From Cyanobium sp. NIES-981 (GTDB lineage: Bacteria; Cyanobacteriota; Cyanobacteriia; PCC-6307; Cyanobiaceae), in contig CAMDEM010000005.1 in assembly GCA_945896675.1 (NCBI GenBank), positions 1-64,000 on the forward strand: DNA of 64,000 nucleotides. The letters are read 5' to 3'. Of this stretch, positions 146 through 14,464 are shown piece after piece. The translations under genes were made by a program, and so were the position numbers. The first letter of the stretch is position 1. Each line of letters opens with the position of its first letter. Below the pieces are notes generated by a model. The model searched no databases and had not been told where the DNA came from. It saw only the letters and a list, made by a program, of their open reading frames with translations.

Positions 146-241
146 TCACTTGAAGGCTTCAACGGTGGGCACCTGAGCCTGTGCCTTAAGCGCCGCCAAT
201 CTGGCGTCCTGCATCTGGCAGGCGTATTCGATCACGTTCAT
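146..241 (-). CDS. Small unknown ORF, 31 aa, last of an overlapping chain
   Basis: A 31-residue ORF beginning MNVIEYACQMQDARLAALK. Its ATG overlaps the stop of the preceding ORF (238-543) in an ATGA arrangement, which suggests translational coupling. No domain is recognisable; the middle is Ala/Gln rich and could be helical. It is supported only by its place at the end of four consecutively overlapping minus-strand ORFs. The sequence to its left (1-145) shows no clear gene apart from a possible ATG near base 17 running off the window. It could be spurious. Confidence 0.35.
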   Translation of the reverse strand: MNVIEYACQMQDARLAALKAQAQVPTVEAFK

Positions 242-543
242 GGCAAAACCTGATTCAGTAGGGCAAGTTCCAGATCGCACTCGCTTTGCTGGTCGATGAG
301 GCCACCAGCAATTTGCCGAAGGTCGTCACCTAGTTGTTGCAACTTTTGCTGCAATTCAATGCGACGATCTTCGATCTGCTTTTGGCATCCAGGATCAGCC
401 ACCAAGCGAGGCAGTTCTGTGGACCAGAAGTGATCGGTATCAGGCTTGCCTAGTTCGATGTTGCGGTCCAGTGCCTGTCGGTAGATGTGGTCCGGCACCC
501 GTAGCCAGTTTGCTGTTGGGTGCATTTTGGCGATGTGTGCCAT
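238..543 (-). CDS. Hypothetical protein, 101 aa, island ORF
   Basis: The protein starts MAHIAKMHPTANWLRVPDH. The ATG at 543 is preferred over a TTG two codons upstream because it overlaps the previous stop as TAATG. The central part (roughly residues 40-75) is rich in Glu, Gln, Arg and Leu and looks helical or coiled-coil. No signal peptide, membrane segment or known motif is visible. It sits between two other overlapping unknown ORFs, so the set is probably one transcript. Such short tightly overlapping genes are common in phages and integrated islands, but no phage hallmark protein is present here. Function unknown. Confidence 0.5.
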   Translation of the reverse strand: MAHIAKMHPTANWLRVPDHIYRQALDRNIELGKPDTDHFWSTELPRLVADPGCQKQIEDRRIELQQKLQQLGDDLRQIAGGLIDQQSECDLELALLNQVLP

Positions 544-959
544 TACCAACGCCTCCCTGTTGTGGTTGAAACACCAACGATGAAGGCGCGGTCCAGGTGC
601 TGCCTGTGGGCAGCGTTGGTGGCTTGCAATTCAGCGGTGGCAGCCTTCATCCGTTCGATCTGCTGTTGACGTTCTGCCTCGGCTTCCTGACGGGCGTAAT
701 CGGGTGCTGATGTGCCCTTACCGGCCGCAGCGGCCAAATAGCTAGCCAACGCCGGATCGTGGCGCTCAAGCAGTCCGATTGCGGTCAGATTCCCGACGCG
801 GTATGGATTCGGCACCTGGCCATGTTCACGGCGTCCAGAAGCCAGAAACCTGTCCATACCTTCAATCTTGGCCATCCTGGAAACAATGGCTCGAGCATCA
901 TCTTCGGCTGCGGCCGCTTTGCGATGGTCGGCATCAATCCGTGCATCAAGGTTAGACAT
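543..959 (-). CDS. Hypothetical protein, 138 aa, helical, island ORF
   Basis: Begins MSNLDARIDADHRKAAAAED. This ATG overlaps the stop of the upstream 55-codon ORF as TGATG, which decides the start over a longer in-frame version beginning at 1010. Two charged, Ala/Gln/Glu-rich stretches (about residues 8-35 and 88-125) look like long helices; a Gly-containing segment with NPYRVGNLTAIGLL lies between. No catalytic motif is recognised. It is the longest member of the overlapping ORF chain at 146-1126. The composition would fit a structural or scaffold-type small protein, but that is only an impression. Confidence 0.5.
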   Translation of the reverse strand: MSNLDARIDADHRKAAAAEDDARAIVSRMAKIEGMDRFLASGRREHGQVPNPYRVGNLTAIGLLERHDPALASYLAAAAGKGTSAPDYARQEAEAERQQQIERMKAATAELQATNAAHRQHLDRAFIVGVSTTTGRRW

Positions 960-1126
960 CAGTGGATCTCGACAGGAAAAGGACGTCGTGATTGTGGGGA
1001 TGCAAGGCAATCCGTTTCCGGCACCCGAGGCAGATCATCATCAGCAAGCCGTGCGAGCGTTGCCTCTGCTTGTAGCGCCGCCAATACAGCAGAGCCGGCT
1101 ACAAATATTGGATGCGGTGTTGGCAT
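959..1126 (-). CDS. Small unknown ORF, 55 aa, first of the overlapping chain
   Basis: Encodes MPTPHPIFVAGSAVLAALQ followed by an acidic middle and an Arg/Pro-rich tail ending EIH. The TGA stop shares one base with the ATG of the 138-aa ORF. An AAAGG lies about 11 bases before the ATG and a TATAAA-like element sits just upstream, so this may be the first gene of the short operon. A hydrophobic patch near residues 8-18 is too short and Ala/Gln-rich for a confident membrane helix. Unknown function. Confidence 0.4.
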   Translation of the reverse strand: MPTPHPIFVAGSAVLAALQAEATLARLADDDLPRVPETDCLASPQSRRPFPVEIH

Positions 1127-1196
1127 GATTCCAAAACCTTTATAACCATCACATTCTAAAGGCTTTGGACAAACTAGATCTTGCTAAGCCAATGAC

Positions 1197-1430
1197 CTAC
1201 TTCTTCCAGATGCGAACAATAGCCAGAACAAGGAAAGTGATGGCAAGAGATACCGCAGCAACGAGAAACAACCACGCCACCGGACCGACCATTCCATAAG
1301 GAAGCACCGTACTCATCTGCCATGCCAGGGTGTTAAAAAACTGAGAACCACCAAAGGATAGGAATGGTGCTGCCATGACAGCAGCAGTGGAGATGATGGC
1401 GGTTAAGGCGACGCGTAATGTCGTGTTCAT
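1197..1430 (-). CDS. Small membrane protein, 77 aa, unknown
   Basis: Two hydrophobic segments are visible, about residues 5-25 (ALTAIISTAAVMAAPFLSF) and 48-72 (GPVAWLFLVAAVSLAITFL), ending in a basic RIWKK tail. It therefore looks like a two-pass inner-membrane protein, or a signal-anchored one. No family is recognised. It lies alone between the overlapping ORF chain and a bidirectional hairpin at 1468-1497, within the accessory island next to tRNA-Pro. Confidence 0.5.
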   Translation of the reverse strand: MNTTLRVALTAIISTAAVMAAPFLSFGGSQFFNTLAWQMSTVLPYGMVGPVAWLFLVAAVSLAITFLVLAIVRIWKK

Positions 1431-1467
1431 TTAAAGTGTTAGAGGAAGTACCCACCGGCAAACAGCA

Positions 1468-1497
1468 AGCCTTCGGAGTTGTGCCCGAAGGCTTTTT
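1468..1497. terminator. Intrinsic terminator hairpin, probably two-way
   Basis: A perfect 9-bp stem (AGCCTTCGG with CCGAAGGCT) closes an 8-base loop. On the plus strand it is followed by TTTTT; on the minus strand the tail is the weaker TGCTGTTTG. The most likely client is the minus-strand pair ending at 1527, whose transcripts would meet it 34 bases after the stop codon. Confidence 0.6.
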
Positions 1498-1526
1498 ACC
1501 GAAAAGCCGCGACAGGACGAATCCGG

Positions 1527-1787
1527 TTATCTATTCAATATGTACACTCTATTGCAATAGTCGATGGATGTGGCAATAGGCTTCCCTTGGTCAATTATCT
1601 TCGAAAGTGCACAGTTGCAGTATTTGTTGACATCAGAAAGCGTCGACCTGAGTTGCTTATCGATAACGCCTTTCATACCATTGGCAACACATGAGTTCAT
1701 TTCTGACTGGGGATATGCCTCGGAAGGCAGTATTTGCATCCCTGCCAGCAGAGACAAACCCACCAAAATACTTAACTTAAGTGTCAT
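1527..1787 (-). CDS. Small secreted Cys-containing protein, 86 aa, unknown
   Basis: A typical Sec signal peptide is visible: MTLKLSILVGLSLLAGM, then a probable cleavage near SEA-YPQ. The mature part of about 60 residues carries four cysteines (NSCVANG, YCNCALSK, DYCNRV), which could form disulfides in the periplasm. The ATG at 1787 follows the stop of the upstream interrupted lipoprotein gene by only two bases, so the two were probably co-translated; a TTG at 1793 is a less likely start. Codon use and AT content differ from the core genome nearby, which fits recent acquisition. Function unknown. Confidence 0.5.
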   Translation of the reverse strand: MTLKLSILVGLSLLAGMQILPSEAYPQSEMNSCVANGMKGVIDKQLRSTLSDVNKYCNCALSKIIDQGKPIATSIDYCNRVYILNR

Positions 1788-1789
1788 CG

Positions 1790-2158
1790 TCAAAGGGCCG
1801 AAACAGGCTTAGCGTCTTCGTCGCGCCATCTACCGGGTCCTTCGCCTGGCGCAAAAATATCCACTCCCCTCCACACAATATTTTCGCCATCTAGCTTGCA
1901 TTCGTACTTGAAGAGCTTCTGGTCATCCGACCTGATATAGCTTATTGCGACAAGGGATCCATCGTCGTCTACACGGTCAACATTCATTGAAGACACTGGA
2001 CGCCCCATAAGCTCTCCAATATATTTTTTACATGCTGAACTGAGGTCAACTTTAGGAACAGTCTATACCTCTGGCTGTCCGCATGCTTGCAGCAAAATAC
2101 CCACAAGAGCCAACGCGGATATGGTTTTAATGCCAATCAGACGTAAGGACTTCTTCAC
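1790..2158 (-). pseudogene. Lipoprotein gene interrupted by an in-frame TAG
   Basis: Reading from a GTG at 2158 gives a lipoprotein signal peptide (VKKSLRLIGIKTISALALVG) with a lipobox ILLQAC at residues 22-26, then GQPEV and a TAG at 2065-2063. The same frame continues without another stop as TVPKVDLSSACKKYIGELMG and on to ...DEDAKPVSAL at 1790. The unbroken downstream frame and the complete secretion signal upstream indicate one ~122-residue lipoprotein split by a single nonsense codon. An ATG at 2008 with GGAGAG upstream could restart translation of the last 72 residues, but without export. It could instead be a sequencing error. Mature-domain family not recognised. Confidence 0.6.
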
Positions 2159-2262
2159 GATGCTCAGCAGATAGTCGTTAGAACGATAGGGCAAAGATTG
2201 CCAGCAAGAGCTAGCCGCAAGACAGCGAAGTCAGCTGGATGCACCCCTATCGCTCTGCAGGG

Positions 2263-2358
2263 TCAATCCAGCATCTGAATCCAGACCCACCAGAGCACCG
2301 CCACCGGCACCATCGCCAGGGCCAGCACAGCAAGGCTCTGAAGCTGTTCTGGGTTCAT
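2263..2358 (-). CDS. Tiny single-pass membrane peptide, 31 aa
   Basis: Encodes MNPEQLQSLAVLALAMVPVA, then VLWWVWIQMLD. A short polar N-terminus leads into one hydrophobic helix of about 20 residues rich in Trp, and the C-terminus is Asp. It starts four bases after the stop of the 43-aa membrane ORF, so the two may be a coupled pair. Its length prevents family assignment. Membrane-peptide pairs of this shape occur among small photosystem subunits, holins and toxin peptides, and the sequence does not discriminate between them. Confidence 0.35.
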   Translation of the reverse strand: MNPEQLQSLAVLALAMVPVAVLWWVWIQMLD

Positions 2359-2362
2359 CGGC

Positions 2363-2494
2363 TCAGCTGAGCCGCAGCCTGACCAGAACCAACACCAGAG
2401 CGGCAGCTAGCAGCCAGTAAAGCCATGTGAGCTTGAACGCAATGGCAGCCACCAAGCCCAAGGCAAACAGGATTGCGAAGCGGCCAAGTGTCAT
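2363..2494 (-). CDS. Tiny membrane peptide, 43 aa
   Basis: Encodes MTLGRFAILFALGLVAAIAF, then KLTWLYWLLAAALVLVLVRL and RLS. Two adjacent hydrophobic stretches separated by one Lys could be a hairpin or one bent helix; the basic C-terminus predicts a cytoplasmic tail. No Shine-Dalgarno is obvious. It is followed after four bases by another membrane peptide. Supported by the clean hydrophobic pattern and pairing, not by recognised homology. Confidence 0.4.
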   Translation of the reverse strand: MTLGRFAILFALGLVAAIAFKLTWLYWLLAAALVLVLVRLRLS

Positions 2495-2588
2495 GGATCA
2501 GGGGCCAGATTCACCGCAGCTTGGACGAAAAAACAGCACAAAACCCAGTGCTTGCGGCACTTCTGTCATACCAATGGATCTCGGCTAT

Positions 2589-2639
2589 TGCCGTCAGATT
2601 GCCGTCAGAATCTTGACGGCAGAATCAGCCTTGCCGTCA
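2589..2639. repeat. Cluster of four TGCCGTCA octamers next to tRNA-Pro
   Basis: TGCCGTCA occurs at 2589-2596 and 2600-2607 (as a direct repeat of ATTGCCGTCAGA with 11-base spacing) and at 2632-2639, and in inverted orientation at 2614-2621. All four lie within 51 bases and end 40 bases from the tRNA 3' end. Short direct and inverted repeats beside a tRNA 3' end are the usual form of arm-type binding sites of tyrosine recombinases (established for phage and island att sites). The inverted pair can also fold as an 8-bp hairpin, but no T-run follows on the minus strand. Confidence 0.5.
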
Positions 2640-2678
2640 TCAACGGCCAAAACCGCTGCTGTTACTGGCTTTTGAAAA

Positions 2679-2752
2679 TCGGGGCGACAGGATTCGAACC
2701 TGCGACCTAGTGCTCCCAAAGCACCCGCGCTACCAAGCTGCGCCACGCCCCG
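2679..2752 (-). tRNA. tRNA-Pro (anticodon UGG)
   Basis: On the minus strand a full cloverleaf can be read: a 7-bp acceptor stem CGGGGCG/CGCCCCG with discriminator A, D-loop AGCTTGGTAGC, anticodon loop CTTTGGGAG with anticodon TGG, and T arm GGTTCGAATCC. The 3' CCA is not encoded. The 3' end points left, toward the accessory island at 1-2670, which is the usual orientation when a tRNA serves as an integration site. Confidence 0.95.
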
Positions 2753-2767
2753 CTTTAGGCAACTTAA

Positions 2768-2804
2768 CCCTTTACCCCCCTCTTGATGACAGTGGGATAA
2801 AGGG
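2768..2804. promoter_or_regulatory. Inverted repeat upstream of tRNA-Pro and the 59-aa ORF
   Basis: CCCTTTA (2768-2774) pairs with TAAAGGG (2798-2804), with three further C-G pairs possible after one mismatch. It lies in the 90-base gap between two divergent transcription units (tRNA-Pro leftward, small ORF rightward). No T-run follows on either strand, so it is more likely an operator or mRNA leader structure than a terminator. Could be chance. Confidence 0.3.
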
Positions 2805-2841
2805 CAGCTAGTCTTGAAACCAACACAGAGAGGGATATGCG

Positions 2842-3021
2842 ATGTCGTTTGAAACCCGCTCCAGTTTCGAATCCGCCCAAACCCTCGGCAACTCCTGCAT
2901 GAAGTGGGGGGCCGACGGCGAGCTGTCGGCCATTGATTTGCAATCAATCCTGCAGCGACTCAGCGCCGTCGACGAACAGGCCTCCACCCTGATGGACTGT
3001 CCGATCAACCGCGGGGCCTAG
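2842..3021 (+). CDS. Small conserved-looking protein, 59 aa, unknown
   Basis: Encodes MSFETRSSFESAQTLGNSCM, a central GADGELSAIDLQSILQRLSAV and a C-terminal MDCPINRGA. The start is supported by AGGG seven bases before the ATG. The middle could form one amphipathic helix pair; two Cys residues are present. The stop overlaps the stop of ridA on the other strand by four bases (tail to tail). It sits on the core-genome side of tRNA-Pro. No family recognised. Confidence 0.5.
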   Translation: MSFETRSSFESAQTLGNSCMKWGADGELSAIDLQSILQRLSAVDEQASTLMDCPINRGA

Positions 3022-3416
3022 CCCACAAGGGCGATGCAATCAATTTCGACCCGGGCCCCCTTGGGCAGGGCAGCCACTTCCACGCAGGCCCGGGCAGGGG
3101 CCACGCCCGAGCTGAACAGTTCGGCATACAGGGCGTTCACCTTGGCAAAGTCGGCCAAATCAGCCAGAAATACCGTGGTGCGCACCACCTGCTGGGGGCT
3201 TGAACCGCCGGCGGTCAAAACCGCCGCCAGGTTGCTTAGCACCTGGCGGGTTTCCGCTTCCACATCGCCCCCGCCAACCATCGCGCCCGTTTGGGGATCC
3301 AGGGCAATCTGGCCGGAGCAGAAGAGCAGCTCGCCGGCTCTTACCGCTTGGTTGTAGGGGCCCACGGGGGCCGGAGCTGACGCGGTGATCACCGCTTCGG
3401 CTTGGATGGTACTCAT
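3018..3416 (-). CDS. ridA: RidA family enamine/imine deaminase
   Basis: RidA hydrolyses reactive 2-aminoacrylate and other enamines released by PLP enzymes, protecting them from damage; it acts in the cytosol as a trimer. The 132-residue length fits the family (~130). Visible family features are APAPVGPYNQAVRAG near the N-terminus, FCSGQIALDP, the segment QVLSNLAAVLTAGGSS, VVRTTVFLADLADF, and the C-terminal P.ARACVEVAALPKGARVEID, whose Arg (in PARAC) is the substrate-carboxylate ligand. The start MSTIQAEA at 3416 is preferred over the in-frame extension to 3470 because it matches usual length. It follows the ion-channel gene by 41 bases in the same direction. Confidence 0.93.
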   Translation of the reverse strand: MSTIQAEAVITASAPAPVGPYNQAVRAGELLFCSGQIALDPQTGAMVGGGDVEAETRQVLSNLAAVLTAGGSSPQQVVRTTVFLADLADFAKVNALYAELFSSGVAPARACVEVAALPKGARVEIDCIALVG

Positions 3417-3457
3417 GTTGCTAGGCCTGGACCTGAAAGGGACATTCGATGGGCCAT

Positions 3458-4606
3458 TTAAGCCATCCAAGCCATAAAGGCGGCTACTACGGTGCCAACA
3501 ACGGCCGAAACCTGAAAAATGGTGTCGGCCCGATTAATGGTGGCGAGGGCTTGTTCTTTCCCCTTTTTGGGTGTCCTTTGGTAGAAGTTGGTACCCCAAA
3601 CAAACAGCAAAAATGTTCCGATCGAAATGACATAACCGCAGGCATAGATCCAGTCAAGGAAGGTTAAATAGTCGAGCTCAGGAAGCTCAGCTTGGTAAGC
3701 CTGTTGCAGAAAGATCATGGTAAGAAGACCTGTCGATGGTATGGCCAATCGAATATCGCCAAGTTCTCCTTCGAGGGAGGGAGCCAAAATGACAATCCCC
3801 ACCACAATCATCAGCGGTAAAAAGTATTTGAGGATACTGGGCAAAGGCGTGCTCTTCAGGGTCGCCTGGAGGGCCACCCCCGAGTAGGACAAATCTCCAC
3901 TGTTCAACCCCATTTTGGTACCAAAGGCGTGAACAGTGGGTTCCAAAATTGAAGAAGTAATCTTATAACCGTTGATTTCCGCAAATGACCCCACAAGGGC
4001 ATTTCTGCCTGACTCAGGCACCAAAATTACATTGCCTCTTTGGATGGCCAGACTGTCGTCACTCACTTCAAAAATGACGGGCAATTGCACCGATTCAAAC
4101 GGAAAACGTTTGAGGTTGATATCGGGGATGTAAAAATTTGCTGAGAATTGAAACTGCTGATAATAGTTTCCATTGGCCAGGCGTACGGGTTCTTCGCTAG
4201 CGCTAGTGATCTGGCCGTCCCAGGTGTCGACCTGATTAGCCAAAACGATGATCGCTTTAGGTTCGATCTTCTCGCTATCGAGCTTGTTTTGAAAACCCTG
4301 GGGCCATTCGAGCCAGTAGGAGCCCTCAGCCACAAAGCGGCGATTGTGCAGAGAAAGGTCATGGAAATTCTCTACATAGGCACCCACTTTTACCTCAATC
4401 GCGTTGGGCTTACTGAGCAGCTCTTTAATGTTGGCAGGCGCAAAACTGGCCACATCGCGATTCGATCGCGGGCTGGCTGGGCCCGCTCCACTGGGGCTCT
4501 GGAGGGCCAGGATCACTCCCACGCACAGCGCGCTCAGCAGGAATTTTGAGGCGATGCCGGAGGCCAGTCGCAACCGGCGCCAGATGGGGGTTGTCAAAAA
4601 CGCCAT
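3458..4606 (-). CDS. Pentameric ligand-gated ion channel homologue (GLIC/ELIC type)
   Basis: The 382-residue protein has a signal-like segment (about residues 22-43), a beta-rich extracellular domain (60-255) and four membrane helices at about 260-277, 284-304, 312-340 and 363-381, the pLGIC plan. Family features include VKVGAYVENFHDLSLH and SYWLEWPQGF in the first half, the LKRFPFESVQLPV stretch corresponding to the FPFDxQ loop of Cys-loop receptors, a Pro in M1 (FLPLM), and ELPELDYLTFLDW before M3, close to the NLPKTPYMTY region of GLIC. As in other prokaryotic members the Cys pair of the eukaryotic Cys-loop is missing. ATG 4606 avoids overlap with gloB. Likely a plasma-membrane cation or proton-gated channel; ligand and selectivity are not readable. 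It lies between gloB and ridA, all in one direction with gaps of 41-50 bases. Confidence 0.75.
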   Translation of the reverse strand: MAFLTTPIWRRLRLASGIASKFLLSALCVGVILALQSPSGAGPASPRSNRDVASFAPANIKELLSKPNAIEVKVGAYVENFHDLSLHNRRFVAEGSYWLEWPQGFQNKLDSEKIEPKAIIVLANQVDTWDGQITSASEEPVRLANGNYYQQFQFSANFYIPDINLKRFPFESVQLPVIFEVSDDSLAIQRGNVILVPESGRNALVGSFAEINGYKITSSILEPTVHAFGTKMGLNSGDLSYSGVALQATLKSTPLPSILKYFLPLMIVVGIVILAPSLEGELGDIRLAIPSTGLLTMIFLQQAYQAELPELDYLTFLDWIYACGYVISIGTFLLFVWGTNFYQRTPKKGKEQALATINRADTIFQVSAVVGTVVAAFMAWMA

Positions 4607-4656
4607 TGGCCTCAATGGGGTTGATAGCTGGATGGATGGCCGGGATGAAGGGCCTT

Positions 4657-5394
4657 TCACCAATGATCTTTGCTCTGGCGCAACTCGGCTAGGGCCCCGG
4701 GATTGGGGGCCCTGACAAACAGATTGGTGGCCCTTTCCAGCCCGATGCTGCTGGGGATCGTGGGCAGTCCCTGGTGTCTGCGATCCAGCACCTCAGCCAG
4801 GCGGGCTGCGATGGCCTGGTCTTCGGGCTGTTGCTCCGCCGCCCAAGTCAGGTTGGAAGCGGTGTACTCGTGGGCACACCACATCTGGGTTTCAGCCGGC
4901 AAGGCCGCCAGCGCCTGGAGTGAGCCGTGCATCTGCTCGGCCGTGCCCTCAAATAACCGACCGCAGCCGCCGGCAAACAAAGTGTCGCCGCAAAAGAGGT
5001 GGCCGCTTCTAGGGAGCACAAAAGCGATGTGGGCCCTGGTGTGGCCAGGTACATCGAGCACCTGAACCTCCTCGCCCAAGAGGGCGAAATGGTCGCCCCC
5101 CCCGACGCCCACGGTCTGCAGGGGTATTCGCAGACGATCGGCGGCACTGGCGATCACCCGGGCCTGGGGCCAGCGCTTGAGCAGGCCTGGGGTTCCGCCG
5201 ATGTGATCGCTGTGGTGGTGGGTCTGGAGAATCGCCGTGAGCTCCAGGCCCTTGGCATCCAGGGCGGCAATCACGGGCTCTGCCACCGCCGGATCCACCA
5301 CCGCCGCTTGTTGGCCGCGCTCGATCACAAACACATAGTTGTCGTTGAGCACTGGGATCAGGCTCACCTGCAAGGCTTTTGGCAGCTCGCCCAT
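4657..5394 (-). CDS. gloB: Hydroxyacylglutathione hydrolase (glyoxalase II)
   Basis: A metallo-beta-lactamase-fold hydrolase that converts S-lactoylglutathione to lactate and glutathione in methylglyoxal detoxification. The binuclear metal motif [10 protein letters not shown] lies near residue 55, with further ligands in [29 protein letters not shown] and CAHEYT; the C-terminal glyoxalase II helical domain follows ([17 protein letters not shown], and ATNLFVRA). Length 245 aa is normal. MGELPKAL at 5394 is the start; the longer frame to 5604 runs antisense into hisG. Divergent from hisG, with the ion-channel gene 50 bases downstream. Confidence 0.94.
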
Positions 5395-5446
5395 CGTTAA
5401 AGTCCCATCGGCGGCGTCTCTCCATATTGACCGTCCCACCCAAGGC

Positions 5447-6103
5447 ATGATCACCGTCGCCCTGGCTAAGGGAGCCCTCCTCAAGGACACCGTTCGGCGT
5501 TTTGCAGCAGCCGGCCTGGATTTTTCAGCGGTGTTAGAGCCCAGCAACCGCCAATTGATGGTGCCAAGCACCTGCGGCACGGCCCGGGCCCTGTTGGTGC
5601 GCAACGCCGATGTGCCGGTGTACGTGGCCTACGGCCAGGCCCAACTGGGGGTGGTCGGCTACGACGTTCTCCAGGAGCACCAATTGCCCGTGGCCCACCT
5701 GGTGGATTTGGGCTTTGGCGGCTGCCGCATGAGCGTGGCCGTGAAGGCCTCCAGTGGCTACCGCCGCGCCGCCGACCTGCCTGCCCACTGCCGGATCGCC
5801 AGCAAATTCACCCGCTGCGCCGAGGCCTATTTCGAAGCCCTTGATTTGCCTGTCGAACTGATCCACCTGGCTGGATCGGTGGAACTGGGCCCCATCACCG
5901 GCATGAGTGAAGCCATCGTGGACCTGGTGGCCACCGGTCGCACCCTGAAGGAGAACGGCCTCGTGGCCATCGAAGATCTGTTCCACTCCACAGCCCGCCT
6001 GGTGGGCCACCCCCTGGCCCTGCGCCTGGATGCCGGTCCACTCCAGACCCTGGTGGACAGGCTCGCCGTGCTCTCAGCCGTTGTTCCCCAAGCGGTGGCC
6101 TAA
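5447..6103 (+). CDS. hisG: ATP phosphoribosyltransferase, short form
   Basis: First enzyme of histidine biosynthesis, joining ATP and PRPP. At 218 residues it is the short HisG type, which needs HisZ as regulatory subunit (family knowledge; hisZ is not in the window). Visible motifs are the N-terminal [47 protein letters not shown], and the PRPP loop ending [15 protein letters not shown]. The ATG at 5447 starts right at the conserved N-terminus; frames upstream are antisense to gloB. The TAA stop overlaps the ATG of the ABC transporter as TAATG, so the two are translationally coupled. Confidence 0.95.
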
Positions 6104-7902
6104 TGGCAAAACTGGATCGTCAGCGGCTACTTGGCCTCTTGCCCTACCTCGGACGGGACCGCAAACGTCTATGGGCCACCCTCGTGCTGCTGATCCCGGT
6201 GGCCGGGGCAGCCGCCATTCAACCGCTGCTGGTGGGCCAAGCGATCTCGGCCCTGCGCCACGAACCCGTGATGCCCTGGCTCGCGGGCAAGGCGGTGTCT
6301 GAACAGCTCCGCACCCTGGTGTTGCTGCTGTTGGCAGCTGTGTTGGTGCGCCTGGGCCTGCAGGGATTCCAAACCTTCAATGTGCAAGCCGTGGGGCAGC
6401 GGCTCACCGCCCGCATCCGCAACGACCTGTTCTCCCATGCCATGGCGTTGTCGTTGCGGTTCCACGACCGCACGCCGGTGGGCAAGTTGCTCACCCGCCT
6501 CACCAGTGATGTGGATGCCCTCGCCGAGGTTTTTGGCAGCGGCGCTGTGGGGGTGCTGGCGGATCTGGTGACCTTGATCGTGATCGCCGTCACGATGATT
6601 TCGATCGAGTGGCGCCTGGGCTTGCTGTTGATGCTCAGCCAGATTCCGGTGGTATTCGGAATCCTCTGGCTGCAGAGCCGGTACCGCAAGGCCAACTACC
6701 GGGTGCGCGAAGAATTGGGGCAACTCAATGCCGACCTCCAGGAGAACCTCCAGGGCCTCGAAGTGGTTCAGATGTTCCGTAGGGAAGGGGTCAATAGCGC
6801 CCGCTTCTCCCGCACCACCGATTCCTATCGGCAAGCCATCACCGGAACGATCCTCTACGACAGCTCCATCTCTGCCTTCATTGAGTGGGTAGCCCTCACT
6901 GCAGTGGCTGTGGTGTTAGGGCTGGGGGGCTCCATGGTGACCGAGGGCTTGATGGGCCTGGGCACCCTCACCACCTTCATCCTCTATTCCCAGCGCCTGT
7001 TTGATCCCTTGCGGCAGCTGGCCGAGCGTTTCACCCAGATCCAAGGGGGCTTAACGGCGGTCGAGCGGATCGGCGAACTGCTGGAGCAACCGATTGAGAT
7101 TGCGGAACTGCCGGAGAACCAAAAAACAGCCGCCGCCGTGCGCAGCGGCATCGAACGCAACAGTGCCGGGGAGGTGATCTTTGAGAACGTTTCCTTTGCC
7201 TACCGGGCCGACGATCCGATCCTGCAGGATCTCTCCTTCCGGATCAATCCAGGTGAACACGTGGCCCTGGTGGGCCCGACGGGTTCCGGTAAAACCACGA
7301 TCATTCGGCTCCTCTGCCGCCTCTACGAGCCCCAGCAGGGCCGGATCCTGCTGGATGGCATCGACATCCGCCAATTGCCCATCCCCACCCTGAGGCAACG
7401 GCTTGGCGTGGTCCTGCAGGACACCTTCCTGTTTAGCGGCAACGTGGCCGACAACCTCAGGCTCGATGCCCCCATCAGCACCGATGAGCTGCGCCAGACC
7501 TGTAGGGACCTGGGCCTGGGCCCCTTGCTGCAGCGCCTCCCAGATGGATTGGCCACCGAACTGCGGGAACGGGGCGGCAACCTCTCCTCGGGAGAGCGCC
7601 AGCTTCTTTCTGTGGCCCGGGTGGCCATCCGCGACCCCTCAGTGTTGGTGATGGATGAGGCCACGGCCTTCATGGATCCCTCCACCGAAGCCACCCTGCA
7701 ACGCGACCTCGACCGACTTCTCAATCAGCGGACCGCCATCGTGATTGCCCATCGCCTGGCCACCGTGGAGGCTGCCGATCGGATCCTCGTACTGAAAAAG
7801 GGCCGCGTGGTGGAGCAGGGCAATCACCTCCAACTAAGGGCTGCCGGGGGCCTCTATGCCCAGCTGGCAGAACTCCAGGAGCGGGGCCTCGCCGCCCTCT
7901 AG
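6103..7902 (+). CDS. ABC transporter, fused membrane and ATPase domains (MsbA/MDR type)
   Basis: A 599-residue half-transporter. The N-terminal exporter membrane domain (about 1-330) includes RFHDRTPVGKLLTRLTSDVDA, the usual coupling-helix region. The ATPase domain has Walker A GPTGSGKTT at about 391-399, a Q-loop VLQDTFLFSGN, signature LSSGERQ near 492-498, Walker B VLVMDEAT near 515 and the H-loop AHRLAT. The D-loop reads AFMD where most members have SSLD or SALD. It would form a homodimer in the plasma membrane and export lipids or drugs; the substrate cannot be read. It starts one base inside the hisG stop. Its 3' end overlaps the hydrolase gene on the other strand by 69 bases. Confidence 0.88.
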   Translation: MAKLDRQRLLGLLPYLGRDRKRLWATLVLLIPVAGAAAIQPLLVGQAISALRHEPVMPWLAGKAVSEQLRTLVLLLLAAVLVRLGLQGFQTFNVQAVGQRLTARIRNDLFSHAMALSLRFHDRTPVGKLLTRLTSDVDALAEVFGSGAVGVLADLVTLIVIAVTMISIEWRLGLLLMLSQIPVVFGILWLQSRYRKANYRVREELGQLNADLQENLQGLEVVQMFRREGVNSARFSRTTDSYRQAITGTILYDSSISAFIEWVALTAVAVVLGLGGSMVTEGLMGLGTLTTFILYSQRLFDPLRQLAERFTQIQGGLTAVERIGELLEQPIEIAELPENQKTAAAVRSGIERNSAGEVIFENVSFAYRADDPILQDLSFRINPGEHVALVGPTGSGKTTIIRLLCRLYEPQQGRILLDGIDIRQLPIPTLRQRLGVVLQDTFLFSGNVADNLRLDAPISTDELRQTCRDLGLGPLLQRLPDGLATELRERGGNLSSGERQLLSVARVAIRDPSVLVMDEATAFMDPSTEATLQRDLDRLLNQRTAIVIAHRLATVEAADRILVLKKGRVVEQGNHLQLRAAGGLYAQLAELQERGLAAL

Positions 7903-8622
7903 CCAGCTGACCAAGGTGCTGGCCAGGAGCTCGGGGGTCTCCCGCATGGCCAGGTGGCCTACTCCTTCAAGCAGCACGAACCGGTGGTCAGGGGCATAGC
8001 CCGCCAGGTGGCGCACATAGCCCGGCTGCATCACCTGGTCGCGGCTGCCCGCAATCCAAAGGCTGGGCACCTGCAAAGCCGCGGTGATCTGGGGCAATTG
8101 CCGCACGGCCCCCCGGTTGGTGCTGCAGGCCAACAAGCCCCGGGCAGCGCGCAGGTCAGCCCGCAGGGGGCTGCGAATCGAATCAGTGAAGGGAAGGGCC
8201 TGCAACCAGCCAGGCCGCCATTGCAAAAAGGTGGATCCCGCCCAGCGCACTTGGGCAAAGGCCTTCGGTTGGTACACGCCACCACCGGAGGCAACCTGCA
8301 CAATCCCTTTGAGCTGGGGTCCCAAATGGGCTGCGGCATGCAACACCACACTGCCGCCCAGGGAATGGCCCATCAGCACCACGGGCCGGTTGGGGGCGCG
8401 CTCAACAATCGCCTCCGCCAACCAGCGGCCGTAGGTAGCCAGACTCGGTTGCAACCCCCGAGGGCGGCTTGTGGTGCCAAACCCGGGTAGGTCGGGGGAC
8501 CAGAGCTGCCATTCCGGCTCCAACACCCGGGCCAGGGGATTCCAAAGCCTGCCAGCCAGCAGCCAGCCATGGACCGCCACCAGCAGGGGACGTTCAGGGA
8601 AATCTCGAAGGGATGGCGTCAT
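7834..8622 (-). CDS. Alpha/beta-fold hydrolase (BioH-like)
   Basis: An alpha/beta hydrolase of about 262 residues. The oxyanion HGW is in VAVHGWLLAG near residue 16, the nucleophile elbow GHSLGGS in the first half, the acid probably in SRDQV (after LWIAG) and the His in EGVGHLAMRETPEL. The arrangement resembles BioH, the pimeloyl-ACP methyl ester esterase of biotin synthesis, but related esterases look the same and no biotin gene is adjacent. Starts at 8640 or 8643 are possible; 8622 (MTPSLRDF) is chosen because conserved sequence begins soon after. The 5' end overlaps the divergent acetyltransferase by about 10 bases. Confidence 0.8.
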   Translation of the reverse strand: MTPSLRDFPERPLLVAVHGWLLAGRLWNPLARVLEPEWQLWSPDLPGFGTTSRPRGLQPSLATYGRWLAEAIVERAPNRPVVLMGHSLGGSVVLHAAAHLGPQLKGIVQVASGGGVYQPKAFAQVRWAGSTFLQWRPGWLQALPFTDSIRSPLRADLRAARGLLACSTNRGAVRQLPQITAALQVPSLWIAGSRDQVMQPGYVRHLAGYAPDHRFVLLEGVGHLAMRETPELLASTLVSWLEGGEAPLLEFCQLGIEAPGSP

Positions 8623-9146
8623 CGGGCAAGATCGTCCCATCACGTTGGCCTGGGGCTGTGAGTGCTACTGAGCTCCTAACCAGTCTCTACGGGGAGCAGC
8701 ACCGAATTTGCACCACTCCCAACCCCCAAATCGGCCTGGTGCTGAGCACCGAGCGACCCATCGATCTGATGGAGCTGGAGAGGTTGTGTGATGCGGTGGG
8801 CTGGAGCCGGCGGCCGATGCGCCGCGTGCGCAAGGCCCTGGAATTCAGCCTGTTGCAGGTGGGCCTCTGGCGCCACGACCAGCGCATGCCCAAACTTGTG
8901 GGCTTTGCCCGCTGCACCGGAGATGGGGTGGTAGAGGCCACGGTGTGGGATGTGGCCGTTCACCCGCTCTATCAACGGGTGGGACTGGGAAAACAGCTGA
9001 TGGTCTACATACTCGACCAACTGAAAGAGCTGGAACTCGATCGGGTCACCCTGTTTGCCGATCCAGAGGTGGTGGGCTTCTACGAAGACCAAGGCTGGGA
9101 GCTGGAACCCCTGCAGCGACGCTGCGCGTTTTGGTATTCGCCCTAA
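8613..9146 (+). CDS. GNAT family N-acetyltransferase, Ycf52/NSI type
   Basis: A 177-residue Gcn5-related acetyltransferase. The acetyl-CoA site is visible as VWDVAVHPLYQRVGLGKQLM (residues 111-130, Q/RxxGxG loop) and the C-terminal VTLFADPEVVGFYEDQGW followed by a terminal FWYSP. That combination of LFADPEVVGFY and a terminal FWY is typical of the cyanobacterial and plastid Ycf52/NSI group, whose plant members acetylate proteins and serotonin. Substrate here is unknown. The ATG at 8613 lies inside the start of the divergent hydrolase gene, so the two may share control sequence. Confidence 0.85.
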   Translation: MASSGKIVPSRWPGAVSATELLTSLYGEQHRICTTPNPQIGLVLSTERPIDLMELERLCDAVGWSRRPMRRVRKALEFSLLQVGLWRHDQRMPKLVGFARCTGDGVVEATVWDVAVHPLYQRVGLGKQLMVYILDQLKELELDRVTLFADPEVVGFYEDQGWELEPLQRRCAFWYSP

Positions 9147-9161
9147 TCCGTAATGAGTGAC

Positions 9162-10100
9162 TTAGCTCCAGCGGCTGGGATCGCTGGAACTCGGCAACTG
9201 GGAGAGGGGATGGCCCTGGCCGAGCAGATCCCGGCTGATGTTGATACAGATCCAATCCATCGGCAGACAGAAACTACTGCCATCGTTATCGAAGGGGCCC
9301 TCCACATAGGAGCCCAATCGTTCTGCAGTGAGAAAGCCTAGGAAGACCAACATCCCTGAGAGAGGATTGCCAGATGCCAGAAAATCGAGATAGACGGCCA
9401 GTCCAAAAAGCCAGCAAATGAGTCGAATAAACACGTCATAGGCCGGAGGCAAAGGGGTATTGCGGATCCTCTGAATACCCCCAAGGGCGTTTGTCATCGT
9501 TTCGGTGCAACGCAGCAGGGCATCGCGCCCCCACTCGCTGATGGCATGGTTTCGGTGCAGCTCGCCAATCCCTGAGGCGCGGAGCTTCATGGAGTCTTGA
9601 AGCGTGATCGAAGCAGGCACCTTCAGCCCATGGCACAGACCATCAACGGCATCCCTTGCATCCGACCTCCAATAGTTACGCAGTTCAAAATTCAACAACC
9701 ATACCTGCAACACCTGCAATTCCAAGAGGCGTTGCTTGGCCTGGGCCAGCCCCGATCCCTCAAGCTCAGCTTCAGGGCCTAACAGGGCTTGGAGACTATC
9801 GCGCCAGTGGCGCGCTTCATTGGTGATAGCACCCCACAGAACCCGCCCCTCCCACCAACGGTTAATCGCCTGGGTGTTACGGAAGGCCACAAAGATTGAA
9901 ACGGCAATCCCGAGCATCGACAAGCCTGTGCCATGTAAAAGCGAGAGGGTTTTTGGTTGAAAAAAATTGTTGTATTCAAAAATCAGGATGCAAGCAATGG
10001 CATAGGCAAGGATGTCACCGCGCATTCGCCAGCAAAGCTGAATCAACACCGGTAGATAATTTCGCCGCTTCACCCGGGGGGCGAGATTGTGGACTACCAA
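9162..10100 (-). CDS. Bestrophin family anion channel
   Basis: About 312 residues with the bestrophin/UPF0187 plan. Visible features are RRNYLPVLIQLCWRMRGDI before the first helix, SIFVAFRNTQAINRWWEGR (the conserved RxxxxxxRWWE region), EWGRDALLRCTETM and IRNTPLPPAYDVFIRL, then two helices and LGSYVEGPFDNDGS...LPMD. In cyanobacteria and plastids related channels carry Cl- or HCO3- across membranes (family knowledge). No ATG fits: the longest frame to 10235 overlaps the upstream glycosyltransferase by 91 bases in a shadow frame. A TTG at 10100 with AGG seven bases upstream is therefore proposed; the start is uncertain. Confidence 0.85.
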   Translation of the reverse strand: MVVHNLAPRVKRRNYLPVLIQLCWRMRGDILAYAIACILIFEYNNFFQPKTLSLLHGTGLSMLGIAVSIFVAFRNTQAINRWWEGRVLWGAITNEARHWRDSLQALLGPEAELEGSGLAQAKQRLLELQVLQVWLLNFELRNYWRSDARDAVDGLCHGLKVPASITLQDSMKLRASGIGELHRNHAISEWGRDALLRCTETMTNALGGIQRIRNTPLPPAYDVFIRLICWLFGLAVYLDFLASGNPLSGMLVFLGFLTAERLGSYVEGPFDNDGSSFCLPMDWICINISRDLLGQGHPLSQLPSSSDPSRWS

Positions 10101-10144
10101 GATCAGACCTGCGTTCTTCTGGGCTTGATTCTGCCTGAAGGAAA

Positions 10145-10891
10145 TCAGGCCTGGCGTCCCTCGGCCTGGCCGTAATAGCGGGATGCCAGCTCCTGACTGC
10201 CCACACCTCGGCGCCAGGCCCGCCTGAGCAGCCAATTGCTCCAGCCCACCGCCCAGACGCCCCGCTCAATCCAGCGGCGGCCATCGACCCGCAACGGCAC
10301 CCCCAGGCACCGCAGCCGGCAGTGGGGCTTGAGCCGCAGGACCAGATCCAAATCCTCCATCAAGGGCAGGCTGGCAAAACCACCCACCTGCAGGTATATC
10401 CGACGGCTTACCAGGAGGCCCTGGTCGCCGTAGGGCAATTGACGCCACTGGCTGCGCAGGGCTACGGCCCATTCCACCAACCGCAGGGCCGGTAGGGCTG
10501 CATCAATGGCCAACCGGAAATACCAGGCGCTGGGCTGGTACTTGCGTTTGGGGTCCTGGGGGATAGCAATAGCCCGAGCTAACTCCCTAGCAACGGCCCG
10601 ATCCCAGCCCGCTGGTAGGCGCCCATCCCCGTGCAGAAAGAGCAGCCACTCGGCTTGGGTCACTGATGCACCCAGGGCAAGTTGCCCCCCCCGCGATGGG
10701 GCGCCGCGAACGACGCGGGCCCCGGCCAACCGGGCCACCGCCGCCGTGGCGTCAGTGCTGGATCCATCCACCACCACCAGCTCAGCCAGGGGCAGCTCCC
10801 CCTGGTGGAGATCCGCCAACAACAGGGGCAGCCTTTCAGCCTCGTTGCGGACCGCAATCACCACGGCGATCGCTCCAACGGTCTCGATCAT
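10145..10891 (-). CDS. TIGR04283-type family 2 glycosyltransferase
   Basis: A 248-residue GT2-fold enzyme. The N-terminal nucleotide-sugar part reads IAVVIAVRNEAERLPLLL, then LVVVDGSSTDAT and the metal region LLFLHGDGRLP, where relatives usually have HADTRLP. The acceptor half has YGDQGLLVSRRIYLQVGGF and PLMEDLDLVLRL, typical of this group. ATG 10891 follows the TIGR04282 stop by four bases. Paired TIGR04282/TIGR04283 genes are annotated as arsenosugar-type glycosyltransferases in many bacteria, but direct proof for this protein is lacking. Confidence 0.85.
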   Translation of the reverse strand: MIETVGAIAVVIAVRNEAERLPLLLADLHQGELPLAELVVVDGSSTDATAAVARLAGARVVRGAPSRGGQLALGASVTQAEWLLFLHGDGRLPAGWDRAVARELARAIAIPQDPKRKYQPSAWYFRLAIDAALPALRLVEWAVALRSQWRQLPYGDQGLLVSRRIYLQVGGFASLPLMEDLDLVLRLKPHCRLRCLGVPLRVDGRRWIERGVWAVGWSNWLLRRAWRRGVGSQELASRYYGQAEGRQA

Positions 10892-10895
10892 GGCG

Positions 10896-11522
10896 CTACC
10901 GCCATGGGAGCAAATCCCTCGGCCAATCCAAATCCCTGCGGGTGGCGAGCAAACCCACCTCCAAACCAAGCCCTGCGGCCCGCTCCAAAGTGCAGCCCAT
11001 TACCCGGTCGCTGCCCCAAGGGATGCCTGCAAGCAGGCCTGGCTGTGCCTGGTGCAGACCGATCAGCCAATAGCCGCCGTCAGCGGCTGGCCCCAGCACC
11101 AGATCACAGCCATCGCCAGCCGCGCCCAAAAAGGCAAAGCCCGCGGCCAGATCGGCCCGTTCCAGCTGGGGCAGGTCGCTGCCGATCAGCACCACCGCCT
11201 GGGCACCCTCCCGCTTGGCTCGGTTGATTTGCCGCTGCATGCGCACGCCCAAGCTGCCGCTCCCCTGGGCAACCCAGCGCGGGCCACCGCGGGCCCCAAA
11301 GCAGCGACGGGCGGCCCTCGGGCCCAATCCATCCATGGCCACCACCACCTCCACCCCTTGCAGCTGGCTGGCCACGGCCAGGGTGTGGGCGGTGAGCACC
11401 TGCTGAATTCGGGCCGCTCTCAAGGGGCCCAGACCGCGGGAAAGCCGTTGTTTGCAACGGCCCGGAGCTGGCCAACGGGCCATCACAACCAGCTGCGGCT
11501 TTCGGGCCAAATGGGGCTTCAC
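10896..11522 (-). CDS. TIGR04282-type glycosyltransferase (DUF2064)
   Basis: A 208-residue nucleotidyl/glycosyl-transferase-like protein. Family motifs seen are LVVMARWPAPGRCKQRLSRG at the N-terminus, AVVLIGSDLPQLERADL, LVLGPAADGGYWLIGL and GIPWGSDRVM. The start is a GTG at 11522 that overlaps the HtrA stop as GTGA; no upstream ATG gives a plausible N-terminus, and the internal ATG would remove the first conserved strand. It is followed by the TIGR04283 gene after four bases, so the pair is probably co-expressed with the protease gene. Confidence 0.85.
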   Translation of the reverse strand: MKPHLARKPQLVVMARWPAPGRCKQRLSRGLGPLRAARIQQVLTAHTLAVASQLQGVEVVVAMDGLGPRAARRCFGARGGPRWVAQGSGSLGVRMQRQINRAKREGAQAVVLIGSDLPQLERADLAAGFAFLGAAGDGCDLVLGPAADGGYWLIGLHQAQPGLLAGIPWGSDRVMGCTLERAAGLGLEVGLLATRRDLDWPRDLLPWR

Positions 11523-12652
11523 CCTTGTTGCGGCAATTCGGCAGGCCTCACCACCAGTTTGGTCTTTTGATTTTGGCGGCGGATGCTGATCGTGAGCGGG
11601 GCGCCCACCCGACCACCATCGACGGCGAGCTGAACCTGGGATGGATTCTTCACATCGTTGCCTCCCACCTGGTCGATCAGGTCGCAGGGCTTCAGGCCGC
11701 TTTGGGCAGCTGGGCTGCCAGCCATGACCTCCACCACCAGCACCCCGTTCACCTCCGGAACTCGGCACTCATCGGTGCTGGCGTTGATCTCCCGGGCCAG
11801 CTGGGGGGTGAGGGCCTGCAGGCGCACTCCGATATAGGGATGGCTTGCCGTACCCCGCTCCAGGATTTGGGCCGCAATTTGACGGGCCACATTGATGGGG
11901 ATCGCGAAGCTCAAACCAGCCCCCGGGGCCTTGCGAATGGCCGTGTTGATACCGATCACCTGACCGTGGTCGTTGATCAAGGGTCCGCCACTGTTGCCGG
12001 GATTAATGGCGGCATCGGTTTGCAGGTAGGGCACCCGTTGGCCCTCACCGAGGGCATTGGTCCTCTGGATGGCACTGATGATTCCAGCGGTCACGGTGTT
12101 GTCGAGTCCCAAGGGATTGCCGATGGCAATGGCCCATTCGCCCGGCTTCACCTTGGAGGAATCCCCAAGGGGGGCCACGGGCAGGCCCGTGGCCGCAACC
12201 CGCACCACCGCCACATCGGTCACCGGATCGCTGCCCAAAACCTTGCCGCTAAAACTGCGGCCATCGGGCAGGGTGACACTGACCTCGGAGACACCCTCCA
12301 CCACGTGGGCGTTGGTCAACACAATCCCATCGGAGCGGGTGATGAAGCCGGATCCTTGGCCCTGCTGCTGCTGAATGGTGCCCCCGCCGCCGAACAGCCC
12401 CCCCAAGGGATTCACCAAACGCTTCAGGGTGTCGATCCGCACCACCGCAGGGCCAACCTTGGCCACGGCATCGGCGATCACGTTGCTCCCGCCAGGAAGC
12501 ACCGGGGTAATGGGGGCATCACTGATGCGGCCATCACGCTGGGCGCGGCCAGGGAACCCGGACAAACCGGTGCTGCAGCCAGCCAACAACAGCAGGGGCA
12601 GCACCAGGGGGGCCAGCAAGCTGGCGCGCCGGCCCTGGGGAAAAGGGGACAT
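11519..12652 (-). CDS. HtrA/Deg-type serine protease, predicted lipoprotein
   Basis: A 377-residue periplasmic or membrane-attached protease of the HtrA family. An export signal with lipobox LLAGC (Cys26) suggests a lipoprotein, which is less usual for this family. The catalytic triad is visible as His116 (VLTNAHVVEG), Asp146 (DPVTDVAVV) and Ser221 (NPGNSGGP). A Q-rich loop (IQQQQGQGSGF) precedes the protease core, and one PDZ domain follows (about 265-360, YIGVRLQALTPQL and GLKPCDLIDQVGG). It is divergent from dnaA with an 83-base gap, and its stop overlaps the TIGR04282 start. Its role is probably protein quality control; it is one of several Deg paralogues usual in cyanobacteria. Confidence 0.92.
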   Translation of the reverse strand: MSPFPQGRRASLLAPLVLPLLLLAGCSTGLSGFPGRAQRDGRISDAPITPVLPGGSNVIADAVAKVGPAVVRIDTLKRLVNPLGGLFGGGGTIQQQQGQGSGFITRSDGIVLTNAHVVEGVSEVSVTLPDGRSFSGKVLGSDPVTDVAVVRVAATGLPVAPLGDSSKVKPGEWAIAIGNPLGLDNTVTAGIISAIQRTNALGEGQRVPYLQTDAAINPGNSGGPLINDHGQVIGINTAIRKAPGAGLSFAIPINVARQIAAQILERGTASHPYIGVRLQALTPQLAREINASTDECRVPEVNGVLVVEVMAGSPAAQSGLKPCDLIDQVGGNDVKNPSQVQLAVDGGRVGAPLTISIRRQNQKTKLVVRPAELPQQG

Positions 12653-12735: not shown

Positions 12736-14172
12736 GTGGCCCCTTCGGTGCAGCAGGCAACCCAGCTGTGGCACCAGGTTCAACAGGGCCTTCAAGCCAA
12801 TCTCAGCAAGCCCACCTTCGAAACCTGGATTCGGCCAGCGCGCTGCACAGGCTTCGACAACGGCCAGCTGACGCTGCAGGCACCCAACAGCTTTGCCTGC
12901 GGGTGGCTCCGCAAAAATTACCTGGGCACCATCGAAGCCGTTGCCTCAGAGATTGCTGGCCGCACGGTCGAAGTGCTGGTCTCCGCCGCCACGGACGACG
13001 ATCCCAACAACGCCCCCACCAACGACCCAGCCAACGGTGCCTCCACCAGCACTGCCCCGAATACCAATGACCGGGTGGCTCGTCCCCAGGCCGCTCTCCT
13101 GCCAACGGCCAAGGCCACCGGCGAAGCGCCCCGCAAGCTCAAAGCCGGGCTCAATCCGCGCTACGTCTTCAACCGGTTTGTGGTGGGCCCCAACAGCCGC
13201 ATGGCCCATGCGGCCTCCTTGGCCGTGGCTGAAGCCCCTGGACGGGAATTCAATCCCCTGTTCCTCTGTGGCGGCGTGGGCCTCGGCAAAACCCACCTGA
13301 TGCAGGCCATCGGCCACTACCGGCTCGAGATCAATCCTGATGCCAAGGTGTTTTACGTTTCCACCGAAACCTTCACCAACGACCTGATCCAGGCCATCCG
13401 CAGGGACGGAATGCAGGCCTTCCGTGATCGCTACCGGGCCGCTGATTTAATCCTGATCGACGACATTCAGTTCATCGAAGGCAAGGAATACACCCAGGAA
13501 GAGTTCTTTCACACCTTTAATGCCCTGCATGAGGCGGGCCGGCAAATTGTGATCGCCTCCGATCGCCCCCCCAGTCAAATTCCCAGGCTGCAGGAGCGCT
13601 TGATCTCGCGCTTTTCGATGGGATTGATCGCCGATATCCAGGTTCCTGACTTGGAAACACGCATGGCCATTCTGCAGAAGAAGGCCGAGCAGGAGCAGAT
13701 GGTCCTGCCCCGGAAGTTGATCCAATTTATTGCGGGTCGCTTCACCTCCAACATTCGGGAATTGGAGGGTGCCCTCACAAGGGCCGTTGCGTTCGCCTCA
13801 ATTACGGGCCTCCCTATGACCGTGGAATCGGTGGCCCCAATGCTGGATCCAGGTGGTGTCGATTTGGAGGTCAAACCTGAGCAACTCATTGAGAAAATTG
13901 CCGAGGTTTTTGGCGTTGGCGCCGAGGAAATGCGCAGTGCCAGCCGCAAGCGGGCCGTGAGTCAGGCCCGCCAAGCGGGGATGTTTTTGATGCGTCAAAC
14001 CACCAACCTCTCGCTAACTCGCATTGGAGAAGCTTTTGGTGGCAAAGACCATTCCACCGTGATGTACGCCGTGGAGCAGGTTGAGAAAAAGCTGAAAACC
14101 GATCCCCAGCTCTCCAGACAGGTGCAACAGGTCAAGGACCTGTTGCAAATGGATTCACGCCGGCGCAAGTAG
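12736..14172 (+). CDS. dnaA: Chromosomal replication initiator DnaA
   Basis: A 478-residue DnaA with the four usual domains. Domain I has [22 protein letters not shown] low-complexity Asn/Pro/Ala linker spans about residues 88-135, and the AAA+ core has [19 protein letters not shown], Walker [11 protein letters not shown] (about 177-186) and Walker [10 protein letters not shown] (about 237-245). The C-terminal DNA-binding helix-turn-helix includes [11 protein letters not shown]. The frame opens with GTG at 12736; a TATATT lies only 14 bases upstream, so a very short leader or another start is possible. No dnaN and no DnaA-box cluster is adjacent, consistent with cyanobacteria in which dnaA is not tied to oriC. 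Confidence 0.96.
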
Positions 14173-14194
14173 CGCTCTCGAATCCCCCCCTTAC

Positions 14195-14464
14195 CTAGCC
14201 CAGGTCCGGAACCACGAGGGCATCGATGGCCGCCGCAAAGCCATGGTCTGCCTCCCCAATGGGAGCCTCCTCGGCTTCGGGGCGAATCGTCAGATTCACG
14301 TAGGTGCGACCAAAGCTGATATCGGGGAAGCGCTGTTGGTCTTCTGACAGGCCATTGAGCTGCTCGAGAAACAGCCGGGTGGCCTCGTAATCAGCAAACT
14401 CAATGCGGCGCTCCAAGCGCTCGGCCTGCTCGGGCTTGGGGCGAGGGGTCCAGGGCTGATCCAT
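14195..14464 (-). CDS. Pterin-dehydratase-like RuBisCO assembly factor (acRAF type)
   Basis: An 89-residue PCD-fold protein: RIEFADYEATRLFLEQLNGL, then FPDISFGRTYVNLTIRP and a terminal GFAAAIDALV, the order seen in pterin-4a-carbinolamine dehydratases. The catalytic HHP-type motif of true dehydratases is not present (QQRFPDISF stands there). The degenerate PCD-like protein encoded in alpha-carboxysome loci has been described as a RuBisCO assembly factor, acRAF. Context supports that call: it is the last gene of the carboxysome/CO2-uptake run, ten bases after chpX. It is convergent with dnaA, 22 bases apart. An ordinary dehydratase is the alternative. Confidence 0.8.
   Translation of the reverse strand: MDQPWTPRPKPEQAERLERRIEFADYEATRLFLEQLNGLSEDQQRFPDISFGRTYVNLTIRPEAEEAPIGEADHGFAAAIDALVVPDLG

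Follow-up and report, generated by a model that had tools for sequence, protein, structure and literature searches.

What do four small, overlapping reading frames without a recognised family do beside a tRNA gene, and to what do they belong? The question is raised by one end of the stretch of DNA analysed here (the window, 64,000 nucleotides), which covers bases 1-64000 of contig C5 of genome G000, an assembly of 1.97 Mb in 48 contigs that is 88.5% complete; since the window starts at base 1 of C5, its position 1 is a contig end. A preliminary description of this DNA had reported a chain of four ORFs of 55, 138, 101 and 31 codons with helical composition, and had considered a small unknown system of phage-like compactness possible.

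The gene chain and its truncated end

The chain is real. The sizes and the junctions TGATG, TAATG and ATGA, read from the sequence, are as described, with overlaps of 1 base between orfA and orfB, 1 base between orfB and orfC and 4 bases between orfC and orfD; the genes lie on the minus strand, which had been left unstated (Table 1). To count as similar, a chain needed a minimum of 50, 100 and 95 codons, with each frame starting at ATG and overlaps of 1 or 4 bases. None of 300 simulated 3-kb sequences (first-order Markov) contained a chain like orfA-C, and among the 21 tiles of 3 kb laid over window positions 1-63000 a single one did, which was the tile with the orfA-C chain itself. The overlaps are also conserved among relatives: orfA and orfB overlap by 1, 4, 8 or 11 bases in all 14 tabulated A-B-C cassettes, and orfB and orfC overlap by 1 or 4 bases in 13 of them, with a 2-base gap in the remaining one, where the starts in this table were picked by nearness to the profile match. 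Thus the claim that these genes overlap and are probably translationally coupled is upheld, and the frames of orfA-C are kept in relatives, which the preliminary description had set as a test of its claim.

Table 1. Features at the start of the window
Feature	Positions	Strand	Remarks
Probable IS3-like insertion sequence end and contig end	1..149		last one or two junction bases ambiguous
orfD	146..241	minus	truncated, 31 of 67 codons left; stop codon from the insertion sequence end
orfC	238..543	minus	101 aa; confident helical model, without fold match
orfB	543..959	minus	138 aa; long-helix protein (low-confidence model)
orfA	959..1126	minus	55 aa; first cassette gene; conserved DDD-x-P ... Q-x-R-R stretch
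77-aa membrane-like ORF	1197..1430	minus	upstream of orfA, within the element; same ORF in G005
88-aa ORF with signal-peptide-like start	1527..1793	minus	within the element; same ORF in G005
Lipoprotein-like gene	1790..2194	minus	in-frame stop; open, 134 aa in G005
48-bp attachment-site sequence (3' part of tRNA-Pro)	2677..2724	minus	second, directly repeated copy at the far element end in G005
tRNA-Pro(TGG), integration site	2679..2752	minus	tRNA scan

The fourth frame is not a complete gene. DNA homology to an intact copy of the element in a relative, G005, ends at window position 150 (blastn), and the terminal 148 bases recur with 100% identity at C48:3522-3669 of the same genome, beside different DNA. 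The sequence at this end, together with a short match to rve_3, an integrase core domain (6.5e-4, which misses the Pfam cut-off), points to an IS3-like insertion sequence, the family name being assigned by eye. The TGA that closes orfD in the window is the first triplet of the insertion sequence, and orfD of G005 has 67 aa; therefore the 31-codon frame described earlier is an artefact of the interruption. The rest of the element is absent from the assembly of the window, as judged by a DNA search and by a protein search with the G005 integrase, which may reflect loss or incomplete assembly. Given the insertion in orfD, the in-frame stop in the lipoprotein-like gene and the missing remainder, we consider the window copy to be decaying.

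The proteins encoded in the window obtained no assignment in Pfam, PHROGs, NCBIfam or PADLOC (the last without orfA and orfD); weak matches to Adhesin_P1_N (0.036) and Hydro_N_hd (0.093) missed the cut-offs, and we put them down to chance similarity of coiled coils. Among sequence profiles of PDB entries there was nothing for orfB (best 0.17) or for orfE (best 0.01), a later gene of the same operon, and the matches of orfC (best 0.0023) were regarded as chance matches between helical proteins. Hence the profile searches that had been proposed for the 138- and 101-aa proteins yielded no functional family in Pfam, PHROGs, NCBIfam or the PDB profiles, in line with the earlier failure to recognise one for the chain. 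Structure prediction bears out the helical composition: the orfC model (pLDDT 89.8, pTM 0.64) consists of three helices, the last of ~49 residues, and the orfB model has long helices at low confidence (pLDDT 65). In fold searches, neither BFVD nor the PDB had a match for the orfC model at E ≤ 0.001, and none reached Z ≥ 2; an island-repressor PDB entry occupied 2 of 10 weak rows at E of about 7 and was disregarded.

The intact element and its mobility

Window positions 150-2752 are 98% identical to part of an intact element in G005, a single-contig relative (blastn comparison of the window's first 6 kb with 34 kb of G005; the element locus is L061). This element of 8.9 kb is inserted in tRNA-Pro(TGG) at 1334134-1334207 and is bounded by 48-bp direct repeats, 100% identical, at 1334161-1334208 and 1343101-1343148, of which the window copy has the near end only. 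The plus strand encodes orfA-D and orfE (118 aa), between which lies a cargo gene of 202 aa; the minus strand encodes a primase-helicase (973 aa), an HTH protein (85 aa) and an integrase (424 aa). The repeats also enclose small ORFs of membrane- and lipoprotein-like type. The contig end cuts off orfE and the genes for integration and replication, and the operon therefore extends further than the preliminary description could tell.

The 424-aa protein is a tyrosine integrase by its match to phrog_1 (8.7e-10; PF00589 at 4.8e-4 is below cut-off), and the 85-aa protein is Xis-like, that is, excisionase-like (HTH_17, PF12728, 4.1e-6, 27.4 bits against a cut-off of 27). A primase-helicase homologous to that of G005, on contig C7 of a further genome, G013, matches AAA_25 (3.3e-22) and, weakly, Toprim models. 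The cargo gene (L061:14873-15481) matches the NCBIfam model 'metal-independent carbonic anhydrase' NF047901 at 9e-65, with 218 bits, which is below the cut-off of 350, and we therefore treat it as a relative of carbonic anhydrases and not as a confirmed equivalog.

The element appears to have moved recently. A RidA-like gene (named by eye) lies upstream of the tRNA in the window, in G013 and in G005, which identifies the three insertions as occupying the same locus, and at this locus the 98% identity of the element stands against an identity of ~72%, over the best pieces, between G000 and G005 in the flanking chromosome past the tRNA (window 2600-12000), a comparison of one genome pair. Contig C7 of G013 carries tRNA-Pro, A-B-C-D-E, the primase-helicase and the HTH protein. 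Its first 127 bp, with tRNA-Pro among them, recur unchanged in contig C1, where other chromosomal DNA follows without the element. This sharing would fit an element present in part of the cells, or an excised form; alternatively, it may be an assembly artefact. Judged from these sequence comparisons, the element is almost certainly a mobile tRNA island, and the island setting next to a tRNA given in the preliminary description is confirmed.

The window and G005 copies differ at 55 of 2534 aligned columns, with 24 of the 55 differences in one 200-column bin; they cluster around the junction of orfA with orfB (within window 543-1126), and the copies are otherwise near-identical. Upstream of the G005 element, contig C1 has an integrase gene (1332772-1334040) and, further away, a 5' fragment of tRNA-Pro (1308942-1308983; L095, L061), which suggests a second element of ~25 kb in tandem with the 8.9-kb one (1308942-1334208).

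Distribution and composition of the cassette

Profiles of orfA had matches in 49 of 400 genomes of the family at E ≤ 0.1, many of them weak, and most of the low-scoring rows were dropped as chance. The orfC model matched 28 of these 400 genomes, which represent 7 of the 59 genera, and 12 of 388 genomes of the class; only 3 matches, weak ones, lay outside the family (1.2e-4 to 9.5e-4, one with stops), and these were also taken as chance. The resulting set of loci comprises 17 places from the orfA search, 10 from the orfC search, the window, G005 and two G013 contigs. Intact, adjacent orfB and orfC occur at 20 loci in the family, a count that leaves out L163, L164, L165 and L167, with broken or incomplete B-C pairs. 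At 18 of the 20, orfE is within reach; it is missing in the window copy, which runs into the contig end, and in L161, a short contig. A tRNA-Pro, -Ala or -Arg gene or a tmRNA gene was present in the fetched stretch at 15 of the 19 loci scanned (L166 was outside the scan), although, in stretches of up to 19 kb, such presence is no proof of attachment. Both cassette loci from named hosts in a public collection are from Synechococcus, and the other hosts are probably picocyanobacteria as well, to go by their family membership.

One cassette has a different setting. An 8.1-kb contig of G013 (C5, locus L063) carries, besides the A-E cassette, genes for a separate integrase and for ParA-like and DUF3854 proteins, and its ends overlap by 121 bp with one mismatch; the overlapping ends and the ParA-like and DUF3854 genes make it plasmid-like. 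No relatives of orfB were found in plasmid records. Short ORFs of the orfA type (DDD-x-P ... S-x-Q-x-R-R) also occur without orfB or orfC matches at L129-L134, where the stretch is incomplete (degenerate) in L133; integrase, Xis-like, primase or ParA genes are nearby in all six.

The usual gene order is A-B-C-short ORF-(cargo)-E, opposite the HTH protein, primase-helicase and integrase. A-C and E are retained in most elements, and the cargo slot between the short ORF and E varies: besides the carbonic-anhydrase relative of G005, we found an Mrr-type nuclease in L123 (Mrr_cat, 1.5e-25), a methyltransferase-like protein in L125 and proteins without assigned family in L121 and L128. The short ORFs in the orfD position are not clearly one family, since three early members align weakly, at 24-27%. 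L160 has two different orfE-type genes, at 13827-14234 and 9983-10357, the first of which matches phrog_34910 at 9.8e-8.

Within the cassette, the two halves of orfB follow different neighbours. In a comparison of 13 orfB rows, pairwise identities of orfA correlate with those of the N-terminal half of orfB (r 0.70) and identities of orfC with those of its C-terminal part (r 0.69), compared to r 0.54 for orfA with orfC and 0.06 for orfE with orfC; the pairs are not independent, and these values are thus descriptive only. Individual pairs behave similarly: L121 and L126 share 92% of C and 76% of the C-terminal part of B, but 49% of the N-terminal half of B and 27% of E, whereas L121 and L123 share 84% of the N-terminal half of B and 88% of E, but 51% of C. 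This pattern suggests recombination inside orfB. It is possible that A contacts the front and C the back of B, which would be a reason for the mosaic.

A proposed role in transfer and its alternatives

We propose that the four genes begin a translationally coupled operon, orfA-B-C-D-(cargo)-E, which belongs to a small integrative element in tRNA-Pro(TGG), and that A-E is the transfer module of this phage-satellite-like element; we put the probability of this reading, with a role of A-E in phage-borne transfer, at about 0.45. The integrase and Xis would excise the element, the primase-helicase would copy it and A-E would, less surely, serve its transfer. The HTH protein E might bind element DNA, as a small terminase subunit does, A, B and C might redirect packaging or assembly of a helper cyanophage, with B as a long-helix bridge, and the element would thereby travel as a tycheposon- or VEIME-like phage satellite. 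The chain does belong to a mobile element; the link to phages is one that we infer.

The reading is drawn from the occurrence of the cassette in elements with different integrases and on the plasmid-like contig with ParA, from the lack of a recognised relaxase among those element proteins that were scanned and from an operon layout like that of satellite packaging operons. In the packaging operons of PICIs and SaPIs, small genes for capsid remodelling or for blocking helper packaging are co-transcribed with a small terminase gene; the likeness of A-E to these lies in layout only, with neither a sequence relation shown nor E identified as a terminase subunit. We also counted in favour of a transfer role the Mrr-type nuclease carried as cargo by one element and the HTH-like nature of orfE (HTH_23, 3.2e-4, below cut-off), and in the small L121 element no replication gene was recognised beside the cassette.

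Against it, we counted that cargo or other genes can part D from E in an intact copy, that orfC has no fold match and that E has no convincing terminase match. The best terminase-labelled PHROGs for orfE are at 0.12 and 0.32, its best PHROG overall (34910, 9.8e-8) has no function, and phrog_836, 'late transcriptional activator', matches weakly in 5 of 12 members; E as a small terminase subunit was therefore suggested by the layout, was not borne out by the profile searches and stays a lead. The absence of phage or viral-contig relatives was also counted: among 50,697 phage records, tblastn brought up nothing related to B, C or E, and seven short-peptide scans of viral contigs gave no confirmed cassette relative. 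The only tblastn match there, at viral locus L168, was supported by none of the four profiles at E ≤ 10. Nor did we identify a helper phage, a capsid gene or a packaging site for the element.

The occurrence on the plasmid-like contig, with its ParA, replication-type DUF3854 protein and 121-bp end overlap, could also be explained if A-E were an accessory module for replication, copy number or maintenance of plasmids and integrated elements, with E as regulator and the others as small adaptors, and if the elements moved in vesicles or by generalised transduction. That E is recognisable only as an HTH protein agrees with this, but the replication genes of the cassette-bearing elements differ or go unrecognised, and in G005 and L064 they point away from the cassette; we consider such a module unlikely, though with an appreciable chance of being correct. 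We rate it as quite unlikely that A-D serves the island in phage defence or in host takeover. Defence is a common role of small coupled genes in islands, and one neighbouring cargo gene is the Mrr-type nuclease; yet orfB, orfC and orfE of the G000 and G005 copies have no PADLOC match, and the retention of A-C and E beside varying cargo is the opposite of what is usual for defence cargo.

An integrase and a tRNA site would equally fit an integrative and mobilisable (IME-like) element, in which small HTH proteins can serve as relaxosome accessory factors. In the scans, which covered part of the element's ORFs, we recognised no relaxase; conjugative mobilisation is, in our estimate, a very unlikely role. 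Hardly probable at all is the remnant of an ordinary prophage: the integrase, HTH protein and compact overlapping genes recall one, but the element has full boundaries at 8.9 kb, its ORF list contains by eye no capsid, portal, large terminase or tail genes, and B, C and E have no phage relatives.

The satellite-like transfer reading places the element near several known systems. Tycheposons were reportedly defined by Hackl et al. 2023 and the VEIME is said to have been described by Eppley et al. 2022. Three papers (PMC10187409, PMC10803314, PMC11389934) mention tycheposons and VEIMEs between them and describe tRNA-linked picocyanobacterial elements that resemble ours in tRNA-gene sites, tyrosine recombinases and variable cargo; PMC11389934 proposes such elements as satellites and mentions satellites uncovered in Cyanobacteria. 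The VEIME, named in PMC10803314, is similar as a small integrative element proposed to be packaged by helper phages, but differs in that we found no virion-derived copy of the A-E cassette in the viral contigs scanned. PICMI, as described in PMC10803314, is similar in its very small size, its integrase, its AlpA or HTH_17 regulator (PF05930 or PF12728) and its primase, and in an ATGA-overlapping gene without known function beside another gene. However, PICMI uses fis as its site, compared to tRNA-Pro for the G005 and window element, and has a primase with PF13148 or PF19263, neither of which was matched in a Pfam scan by the primase-helicase of G013:C7, a different type; moreover, the overlapping cassette A-D is not beside int in the G005-type element.

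We found no publication on the A-E cassette in literature searches, whose coverage did not extend to most subscription papers, and it may already be listed under cluster numbers in the primary tycheposon and VEIME papers. A bolder proposal, which we hold as tentative and rather doubtful, is that A-E would be a new kind of module with which picocyanobacterial phage satellites hijack packaging. Its small helical proteins, among them B as an exchangeable adaptor that joins A to C, would form a portable set that does not depend on the genes for integration and replication and could mobilise a plasmid as well.

Picocyanobacteria are major primary producers, and satellite-like islands are one proposed route of gene transfer between them. 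The cassette, which has no functional name, marks such elements in several genera of a single family and offers a handle for finding them and for tests of their mode of travel. Since one element has carbonic-anhydrase-like cargo, genes that matter for carbon uptake may be among those they carry.
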